Positions 25,557 to 47,992 of a stretch of DNA of 64,000 nt are shown here, one piece after another. Numbering within the stretch: the stretch's first letter is position 1; each line of letters starts with the position of its first letter. Where the stretch lies: positions 2,086,501-2,150,500 of the forward strand of contig NZ_JBBOYD010000001.1 in the NCBI RefSeq assembly GCF_038007965.1, given 5' to 3'. The notes below the pieces were generated by a model. It saw nothing but the letters and a program-made list of their open reading frames with translations. It did no database searches and was not told where the DNA came from. The stretch is from Niallia sp. FSL W8-0635 (GTDB lineage: Bacteria; Bacillota; Bacilli; Bacillales; Cytobacillaceae). Made by a program: the position numbers and the translations under genes.

Positions 25557-25595
25557 AATGGTTTTCATCCATAAAAGATGAAAGCCATTTTTTCA
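25557..25595 (+). terminator. Terminator of the 102-aa gene
   Basis: AATGGTTTTCATC pairs with GATGAAAGCCATT, followed by TTTTTC. Confidence 0.85.
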
Positions 25596-45270: not shown

Positions 45271-45322
45271 ACCGGAAAATGATAATTTATTCCTATAAAC
45301 TAGTATTAAGGATGTGAGATAT

Positions 45323-46180
45323 GTGACATGGTTGGAAGGATTACAAAAAGCATTGAACTTTATAGAGGAAAACTTAGAAGAAAAGCTGGAAATAGAAGAG
45401 ATTGCGCGTGTTGCGAATGTTTCTACTTTTCACTTTCAACGCACATTCGCCATCCTTACTGAAATACCTGTAGGGGAGTATATTAGAAGAAGAAGGCTGT
45501 CAATAGCTGGGCAAAGCTTGCTTCACTCAAGGGAAAAGATTATTGATATTGCTTTTAAATATGGATATGAAACACCAGAAGCTTTTACAAAGGCATATCG
45601 CAAACAACATGGGGTTACACCGAGTGAAACGAGAAAAGGAATAGGCTGTCTGAAAATATATAACCCACTCGTCATTCAAGTACAGCTGAAAGGGGCAGAA
45701 CCAATGAAGGTAAAAGTAGTAGAGAAAGAGGCATTTACTATTGCCGGTATGAAAAAATCTTATTCTTTTCAAGAAGATGAAAATCTTCGCGAAATCCCTA
45801 AGCTCTGGGAAGAGGTAAATAAGAATGGAACAGTGAACGAGCTTTTGATGTTATCAGTAGGTGAAGTGTCAGGCGTACTTGGTGTTTGTGTGGACCAATC
45901 AGAACAAGCAGACAAGGATATGGATTACTGGGTAGCAGTTGCAACAGAGGAAAAGTCAGCAAAATATGACCAGCTTATCATTCCAGCATCCAAATGGGCA
46001 GTTTTTGAAGTACATGGACCAATGCCACATAGTATGCAAAAGGTTTGGAAACAGATTTATTCGGAATGGATGCCGACCAGTACTTATCAACAAGCAGGCT
46101 ATATCTCCTTTGAACGATACACAGACGATGATCCATCAAGCGACAATTGCTACTCCGAAATTTGGATACCAGTTAAATAA
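45323..46180 (+). CDS. AraC family regulator with GyrI-like effector domain
   Basis: A 285-residue regulator. The N-terminal AraC HTH pair (residues 8-105) includes EEIARVANVSTFHFQRTFAI and IAFKYGYETPEAFTKAYRKQ. The C-terminal GyrI/SOUL-type effector domain (about 120-285) includes AFTIAGMKKSYSFQE and ends YSEIWIPVK, as in B. subtilis AraC-type drug sensors (for example YdfP/BmrR-like). It should be an activator responding to a lipophilic ligand. GTG at 45323 is preferred by AAGGATG; an earlier GTG at 45314 overlaps. A strong terminator follows. Confidence 0.88.
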   Translation: MTWLEGLQKALNFIEENLEEKLEIEEIARVANVSTFHFQRTFAILTEIPVGEYIRRRRLSIAGQSLLHSREKIIDIAFKYGYETPEAFTKAYRKQHGVTPSETRKGIGCLKIYNPLVIQVQLKGAEPMKVKVVEKEAFTIAGMKKSYSFQEDENLREIPKLWEEVNKNGTVNELLMLSVGEVSGVLGVCVDQSEQADKDMDYWVAVATEEKSAKYDQLIIPASKWAVFEVHGPMPHSMQKVWKQIYSEWMPTSTYQQAGYISFERYTDDDPSSDNCYSEIWIPVK

Positions 46181-46183
46181 TAG

Positions 46184-46242
46184 AAAACCGATGGAATGAC
46201 AATGCTAGGTGAGCATAAAGTCAGATTCCATCGGTTTTTTTT
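46184..46242 (+). terminator. Terminator of the AraC regulator gene
   Basis: AAAACCGATGGAAT pairs with ATTCCATCGGTTTT with a 26-base loop, followed by TTTT. The array starts just after it. Confidence 0.85.
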
Positions 46243-46283
46243 ATTGGATGAACGGATTTTTTGGTGGGAGGGAAGAGGCGATT

Positions 46284-46790
46284 GGCGTTTAGATGGGGGA
46301 TGAAAACTATTTCTCAGAGAAGGAGAGGAAAAAGTGGCGTTTAGATGGGGGATGAAAACCATTTTTATAGAGAAAGCTAGGGAAAGTGGCGTTCATAAGG
46401 GGGATGAAAACCATTTTTCAGAGAAAGCTAGGAAAAAGTGGCGTTCAAAAGAGTGATGAAAATCATTTTTCAGAGGAAGTAAGGAAAAGTGGCGTTCATA
46501 AGAGGAGTGAAAACTATATTTCAGTGAAAGCAAGGAAAAAGTGCCGTTCATAAGAGGGATGAAAACCATTTTTCAGAGGAAGTAAGGAAAAGTAGCGTTC
46601 ATAAGCGGAATGAAAACCATTTTTCAGAGAAAGCTAGGAAAAAGTGGCGTTCATAAGCAAAATGAACCCCATTTGCCAGTAAAACCAAGTGGAAAAAAGC
46701 TTTCATAAGAGGCATGACTCCCGTTTTTTTGAAAAAAAGCAACGTCCATAACTAAAACGAATCCCCATTCTTCAGAGAATAATAGAATAA
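46284..46790. repeat. Degenerate 52-bp tandem repeat array, 9-10 copies
   Basis: The unit starts GGCGTTCATAAG, has GATGAAAACCATTTTTCAGA in the middle and ends in AAAGCTAGGAAAAAGT. Copies begin near 46284, 46336, 46388, 46440, 46491, 46543, 46594, 46646 and 46698, with a shortened one near 46741. Spacings are 51 or 52 bp. Copies differ at several places and degrade toward the right end. No reading frame spans the array, and 52 is not a multiple of three, so it is noncoding. Confidence 0.9.
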
Positions 46791-46876: not shown

Positions 46877-47275
46877 ATGAAAGTGAAGAAAATTCAACAT
46901 TGGATAGGTATTATTGCGATGTTATTCTTATTGGTTCAATCAACAATTGGGGTTGTAGCATATGTAAATAGGGAAGAGCCTTCCGAGAGAATGGGGATGA
47001 TGGGACAACCTCCGACGGATGCAACTGCCTCAGCAAATACAAACACAAATTCAGATACGAATACCAATACAACCGAAAATAATGGTTTTTCAATGGATAA
47101 TCAAAATGGCATGGCGCCGTTTAATGGAATGGAAGGAAGAGGCGATGCGCCGATGGGGAACAATGGAAGTACTGCAAGTTTAGTAGGCTACATTGCTGGT
47201 ATGATTCTTTCACTTGGTGGATTAGTAGTAACCTTCTTAAGCTGGCGAAAAAACAAACAAATCATTGCAGAATAA
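46877..47275 (+). CDS. Two-TM protein with Asn/Thr-rich outside loop
   Basis: A 132-residue membrane protein. TM1 (WIGIIAMLFLLVQSTIGVVAYV) and TM2 (VGYIAGMILSLGGLVVTFL) flank an outside loop of about 70 residues made mostly of Asn, Thr, Gly and Met (TNTNSDTNTNTTENN; MAPFNGMEGRGDAPM). No family is recognised. RBS AGGAGA. The upstream TTAAG element links it to a response regulator of the 25.8 kb type. The low-complexity loop suggests a cell-surface protein. Confidence 0.7.
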   Translation: MKVKKIQHWIGIIAMLFLLVQSTIGVVAYVNREEPSERMGMMGQPPTDATASANTNTNSDTNTNTTENNGFSMDNQNGMAPFNGMEGRGDAPMGNNGSTASLVGYIAGMILSLGGLVVTFLSWRKNKQIIAE

Positions 47276-47747: not shown

Positions 47748-47992
47748 AAATATGGAAATTCGTTGAAAAAGAGAGTAGCTAATTGGAAAGCGATAGCGAA
47801 TTAGGGACGGTGGAAGCCTAATGTGGAACAATTAGTGAAACGCACTTTGGAGATATCATTCTGAATGAAAGTAGGAATGATCGGTTACAGGCCGTTACCT
47901 GTTTAAAGTGGTTATGCAAATAACAATTAGAGTGGTACCGCGGGAATTTGAGCTCTCGCCTCTTCGTTTGGAAGAGGTGGGGGCTTTTTTAT
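47748..47992 (+). promoter_or_regulatory. T-box riboswitch, arginine type, upstream of argS
   Basis: The leader has the stem I elements, the T-box AGAGTGGTACCGCGG (47929-47943), and a terminator stem GCTCTCGCCTCTTC / GAAGAGGTGGGGGC with a T-run. The specifier triplet GTGAAA-CGC-ACTTTGGAG gives CGC at 47841-47843, an arginine codon. Alignment with the lysine T-box at 4.7 kb fixes its position. Read-through requires uncharged tRNA-Arg. Confidence 0.93.

Follow-up and report, generated by a model that had tools for sequence, protein, structure and literature searches.

The array downstream of the araC gene

The window analysed here is a 64,000-nucleotide stretch of the 5.14-Mb genome of Niallia sp. 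FSL W8-0635 (G000). In it, the gene for an AraC/GyrI-like regulator, whose nearest named relatives are in Niallia circulans NBRC 13626 and Bacillus sp. 522_BSPC, is followed by a terminator-like inverted repeat, a tandem array and a further open reading frame. The features are as follows.

45314–46180, plus strand: AraC/GyrI-like regulator gene (Pfam PF12833 and PF06445)
46184–46197 and 46225–46238, plus strand: terminator-like inverted repeat with perfect 14-bp arms, 3′ of araC and upstream of the array
46248–46257, plus strand: left-end half-site (second arm, ATGAACGGAT), 52 bp ahead of the first complete second arm at 46300 (by eye)
46283–46657, plus strand: main tandem array, period 52 with a 103-bp higher-order period (TRF)
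46283–46309, plus strand: core dyad 1, variant TGGCGTTTAG..ATGAAAACTA
46335–46361, plus strand: core dyad 2, first-arm variant as in core dyad 1
46387–46413, plus strand: core dyad 3, exact TGGCGTTCAT-N7-ATGAAAACCA
46439–46465, plus strand: core dyad 4
46490–46516, plus strand: core dyad 5
46542–46568, plus strand: core dyad 6
46593–46619, plus strand: core dyad 7
46645–46671, plus strand: core dyad 8
46697–46723, plus strand: decayed unit 9 (by eye, with a match at 46702)
46740–46790, plus strand: decayed unit 10, 43 bp past the start of unit 9 (by eye and from the D2 repeat copy at 46765–46790)
46877–47275, plus strand: flanking open reading frame of 132 aa, without a Pfam match

The tandem array was confirmed and comprises ten units (eight good and two decayed) plus the leading half-site at 46248–46790, with the ten cores spanning 46283 to 46766. 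The first-pass annotation had described about nine units degrading to the right; the array is real and its right end is decayed, but the count is ten plus a half-site, and the left end deviates as well, the first two units carrying GTTTAG in place of GTTCAT. The half-site is also present in the closest relative, G001.

The period of about 52 bp given in that annotation was reproduced. TRF returned a period of 52 with 7.2 copies (46283–46657, score 475) and also a period of 103 (score 518), which corresponds to alternating unit types. The alternation of linker types makes the 103-bp period the stronger one, and this higher-order period suggests amplification in two-unit steps. Self-identity of the array was 0.595 at offset 52 and 0.563 at offset 103, compared with a maximum of 0.375 at any offset from 20 to 149 in 500 dinucleotide shuffles.

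Each unit in the window consists of the dyad TGGYGTTCAT-N7-ATGAAARCCA and a 25-bp purine-rich linker (plus-strand purine content of the linkers, 0.69). The consensus of 35 units from different loci, read on the purine-rich strand, was AAGGAAAAG TGGYGTTCAT N7 ATGAAARCCA followed by a variable linker, the arms being inverted half-sites. The dyad nature of the unit was absent from the first-pass annotation, and its dispersal and order-wide distribution are invisible from one window. The statement that the array holds no open reading frame stands insofar as none of at least 60 aa spans it, but a 70-aa minus-strand frame (46150–46362) overlaps the first two units.

The array was rejected as a promoter or regulatory element serving the 132-aa frame, since a relative (L033) retains this frame and the TTAAG sequence upstream of it at an araC site without an array (by eye). 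The same reading is further contradicted in Niallia circulans (L031), where the frame appears degenerate and the array persists (by eye). Elsewhere in the window, a T-box leader (47754–47966; Rfam RF00230, 133.6 bits against a gathering score of 93) lies upstream of an arginyl-tRNA synthetase gene. A hairpin at 25559–25587 (TGGTTTTCATC..GATGAAAGCCA plus a T run) directly follows an apparent stop codon, resembles an intrinsic terminator and has arms close to those of the repeat; it is a possible hint at the origin of the repeat units.

Dispersal and copy number in the genus and the order

Dispersed arrays of the same kind were found in 6 of 13 genomes of the genus, the window genome included, so the array is not missing from all relatives, the outcome that was to mark it as a simple local expansion. 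Unit counts at an E value of 0.01 were at least 46 in G000, 170 in G001, 178 in G008, 133 in G012, 72 in G009 and 26 in G010, where the arrays are of a variant form (GGTCGTTCAT-N7-ATGAAAGCCC) mostly spaced 51 bp apart. The remaining seven genomes gave no units at this threshold, with 150 first-look candidates scored per genome.

Copy number differed at orthologous sites. At the araC site, 8 cores were counted in G000, 2 in G001, 7 in G009, 4 in G012 and 9 in G008, and the interval between the Pfam-named genes mutS and mutL held 3 cores in G000 versus 9 in G001. Among the pairs listed, further orthologous sites carried 6, 17 and 3 cores (G001, G008 and G012) or 13, 4, 7 and 1 (G001, G008, G012 and G000). 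The G001 araC array retains matches to the window array's first and its last good unit, and by its sequence it looks as it would after loss or gain of middle units. With a tandem unit of 52 bp, the array falls within the minisatellite range of roughly 10–100 bp, and the suggestion of a minisatellite with variable copy number is upheld between species, each represented by one genome. In G009, contigs L283, L285 and L286 stop inside or beside arrays, as if the assembly had broken at long arrays.

Beyond the genus, the unit model matched 29 of 193 family genomes in 9 of 25 genera (own genus included), weakly outside the own genus, and the loci inspected there contained full arrays with different arms. 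At the level of the order, a two-site pattern (TTCAT-N7-ATGAA twice) was found in 53 of 397 genomes, 26 of 136 genera and 17 of 47 families, with no match for the reversed control; it required a step of 51–53 bp, N7 and exact TTCAT and ATGAA, and thus cannot itself show the absence of other geometries. The pattern was absent at this stringency from 344 of the 397 genomes, which, together with the seven array-free genomes of the genus, indicates that the arrays are dispensable. The window array thus belongs to a dispersed family of tandem repeats, mostly intergenic, that many genera of the order share. In G494, which belongs to another family, a satellite-like array of about 2.1 kb (L371:11228–13308) contains 40 exact sites, spaced 52 bp apart except at one gap of 104 bp; its unit types are shuffled, and it sits between two convergent genes.

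Two mobile origins were rejected. A 45-bp mini-transposon bounded by ATGAA..TTCAT with inverted ends fits several arrays, yet the ends of 74 arrays were mixed: left ends lay at the first arm in 34, at the second arm in 29 and were unresolved in 11, and right ends lay at the second arm in 37, at the first arm in 28 and were unresolved in 9. An origin from phages or plasmids was rejected as no match to the repeat was found in them; five pattern matches in viral contigs were without the outer arms of the family (by eye) and were taken as chance.

Unit geometry, arm symmetry and orientation

Spacing was determined in 74 arrays from 73 loci, comprising 429 cores and 355 adjacent steps; the spacing was not preset, and the core scan itself fixes N7. 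In this set L248 gave no chain, and L007 (the array of L293) and L013–L030 were left out. The step was 52 bp in 291 cases, 51 bp in 45, 53 bp in 11, 50 bp in 5, and 47, 49 and 54 bp in one case each. The modal spacing of the 67 multi-core arrays was 52 bp in 59, 51 bp in 4, 53 bp in 2, and 47 and 54 bp in one each. In 11 genomes from other genera, 150 steps (unit model, 40–65 bp, overlaps removed) gave comparable results: 52 bp in 107, 51 bp in 34, 53 bp in 6, 50 bp in 2 and 54 bp in 1. The arrays of G010, G157 and G144 are mostly at 51 bp, showing that the period can shift.

The centre of the dyad was equally constant. With the loop length left free (2–14), a loop of 7 was found in 175 of 176 exact-arm sites of the fetched Niallia loci and, again with loop length free in the count, in 124 of 131 sites of other genera; the loci had been chosen by a pattern tolerating loops of 4–10 or by a unit model whose loop is 7 nt. 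Dyad symmetry around a centre of constant length, the property looked for in a dimeric site, was thus present in both sets.

Sequence diversity was distributed unevenly over the unit. Between arrays it was 0.13–0.15 for the arms, 0.56 for the loop and 0.62 for the linker, and within arrays 0.08–0.09, 0.20 and 0.17, respectively; these values come from 52-bp units outside G010. Loops and linkers are thus homogenised within arrays and near-random between them, while the arms are conserved throughout, and loop and linker sequence is freely replaced with its length kept. The homogenised linkers also exclude CRISPR, in agreement with the earlier statement that no CRISPR spacer structure is present.

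A coding function is improbable, 52 not being a multiple of 3. A simple ORF caller found that 13 of the 74 arrays overlap a frame of 90–209 aa; these overlaps, as well as the open frames in the 51-bp arrays of G010, were taken as chance. At L296:1114–1665 in G010, the 51-bp period leaves frames of 183 aa and 122 aa open on opposite strands, and a 17-residue repeat results.

The outer arms change between species. Before TTCAT, the sequences TGTCC, GGTC, TGTC, CCTC and TGAAC were found elsewhere, and the opposite side usually matches. The alignment covariance that had been proposed as a check gave a divided result. Among 48 cross-species units (one per locus), 50 cells were changed on both sides compared with 14.5 (sd 4.9) after shuffling (0 of 500 shuffles), and the score was 0.58 compared with at most 0.15 for slid versions; this set includes several units per genome and related species, and the shuffles ignore kinship. 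The inner TTCAT and ATGAA are fixed by the search and uninformative on this point. Within the genus, no covariation was detected in 35 units (pairing 82.3% versus 84.4% in shuffles). The Niallia arms are also imperfect, the central pair being mismatched in 28 of 35 units and the next pair in 16, and these mismatches, along with pairing no better than shuffled, leave a maintained hairpin unsupported within the genus. The covariation between species would be produced by a dimer site as well as by an RNA stem.

With the purine strand taken as plus and simple ORF calls as flanks, 33 of the 74 arrays of the six Niallia-group genomes lay sense to co-directional genes and 10 antisense to them, 21 lay between convergent and 6 between divergent genes, and 4 could not be assigned. 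For 20 arrays from five genomes of three other families, the counts were 9 co-directional sense, 1 antisense, 9 convergent and 1 divergent. No called gene of at least 110 aa lay inside any of these 20 arrays. Their chaining accepted only gaps of 49–55 or 100–106 bp, so the period count there is preset, and in several the linker purine content is near 0.5, hence a weak polarity. As raw counts, divergent gaps were rare among the array sites of both sets.

The purine strand was the leading strand in 14 of 15 arrays in G000, 18 of 19 in G001 and 10 of 10 in G008; these counts orient arrays by linker purine, and composition skew contributes to them. A dif site (3 mismatches) was found in G008 only, the termini of G000 and G001 were placed by synteny from it, and the origins were assumed at the antipode in G008 and at the contig start in G000 and G001. 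Mean purine content was 0.77 in linkers and 0.53 in flanks.

Interpretation and comparison with known systems

We propose that the arrays are minisatellites of geometry-locked dyad-symmetric sites whose geometry is kept by a putative dimeric DNA-binding factor, a proposal that we regard as evenly balanced between right and wrong. The unit consists of inverted half-sites (a TTCAT-N7-ATGAA core flanked by outer arms that differ by species) and a linker of about 25 bp, repeated with a period of 52 bp, which is near five helical turns. Slippage or unequal exchange would add and remove units, a dimeric factor would occupy the dyads on one helix face, so that their geometry is kept, and the specificity of the factor would drift from species to species. 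Once bound, the array might serve to organise the nucleoid, to handle supercoils or to insulate gene ends. A dimeric factor fits better than an RNA or a neutral repeat because of the fixed centre, the near-fixed period and the symmetric arm change between species. The same evidence favours the protein-binding array named among the first-pass possibilities, although this computational analysis identified no binding protein for the arrays; taken together, the interpretations offered in the first-pass annotation were partly supported. Rather doubtful is a wider version, an undescribed order-wide chromosomal system of N7 dyads about five turns apart, read by a dimeric factor that would co-evolve with its site and so give each species its own symmetric arms. 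This factor would mark or insulate the 3′ ends of genes, its polarity being linked to the leading strand.

An unlikely explanation is that the units are non-autonomous mobile repeats (REP/REPIN type), their hairpins copied by a Y1/HUH (RAYT-like) transposase and the arrays arising by tandem copying. The units are palindromic, dispersed and intergenic, and the coincidence of leading and purine strands in 42 of 44 arrays would suit such elements. RAYT-class Y1 matches (47–64 bits to PF01797, set apart by our own split from an IS200 class of about 140 bits) occur in all six array-bearing genomes of the genus and are absent from the other seven, perhaps reflecting one clade; across the order, a RAYT match was present in 42 of 53 array genomes versus 187 of 344 without arrays (Fisher p 5e-4, ignoring phylogeny). 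Yet the repeat was absent from 12 Niallia RAYT neighbourhoods (5 kb) save for one match with 4 mismatches, and 30 RAYT loci from across the order (about 3 kb), 5 of them from array-positive genomes, yielded no site pair. The array ends show no preferred phase, and G242 (108 matches), G435 (106), G571 (85) and G402 (73) are rich in arrays and have no RAYT match. As 11 of the 53 array genomes are without such a match, the transposase is unlikely to be required, and a RAYT-driven REP family was rejected as a necessary source despite its good co-occurrence in the genus.

Somewhat less probable still are passive, functionless minisatellites, in which a 52-bp seed spread early and was kept by slippage and loss. 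The wide variation in copy number between orthologous sites, the deviating array ends and the array-free genomes of the genus agree with them, but the loop of 7 and the period of about 52 persist despite near-random loops and linkers between arrays, and the symmetric arm change is equally unfavourable. The lowest probability falls to an RNA-level element, with tandem hairpins at mRNA 3′ ends stabilising or ending transcripts. The structured RNA considered in the first-pass annotation gains from units that fold better than shuffles (z −4.2 for the window unit and −2.2 to −4.6 for six sequences), from the purine strand being the sense strand at 33 of 43 co-directional sites, from terminator-like sites above expectation in 2 of 4 arrays scanned, and from outer-arm covariation between species, as in an RNA stem. 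Against it, the arms do not covary within the genus and their central pair is mostly mismatched, all Rfam matches over the window array were far below gathering scores, a terminator-like site was absent from the window region and from L241, and those of L371 are on the strand rich in pyrimidines, against the sense polarity; moreover, an RNA would not need a fixed loop length and period.

As a separate observation, a RAYT-like gene adjoins a 516-aa open reading frame in G000, G001 (twice), G009 and G010 (L162, L164, L165, L168 and L170). The G000 copy of this frame matches Mg-chelatase ChlI domains, and we take it to be ComM-type.

If a protein does hold the geometry, as in the dimeric-factor proposal, the arrays would reveal a DNA-binding system in relatives of Bacillus, with sites that a pattern search suffices to locate. 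The natural variants in arms, copy number and period (51 or 52 bp) make it possible to test directly for binding, for phasing along the helix and for co-evolution. Should copy number also vary between strains, the arrays could provide typing markers in Niallia.

No earlier description of 52-bp dyad arrays was found in a literature search that included PMC3116915, PMC2267715, PMC3733652 and PMC4666352 and had subscription journals mostly outside its range; an earlier report may exist. REP, BIME and REPIN elements are short intergenic palindromes that are dispersed and sometimes tandem (PMC3116915, PMC3733652), and in this respect the present arrays are similar. They differ in the near-fixed 7-bp centre and 52-bp period and in not lying beside the RAYT genes examined. 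They also differ in tags: no GTAG or CGTC was seen at the palindrome end on inspection of two unit alignments, the cross-species one showing 8 bases outside TTCAT and ATGAA. CRISPR arrays likewise alternate a palindromic element regularly with a spacer-sized stretch, but their spacers are unique, whereas the linkers here are homogenised copies. Mycobacterial MIRU/VNTR minisatellites and the STAR elements of Staphylococcus are likewise tandem repeats of varying copy number that are dispersed between genes; set against these general descriptions, the present unit is distinguished by a dyad whose geometry is constant over many genera and whose symmetric arms are specific to each species. Among Bacillus relatives, the bcr repeats of the Bacillus cereus group are interspersed and intergenic, as are the arrays described here.
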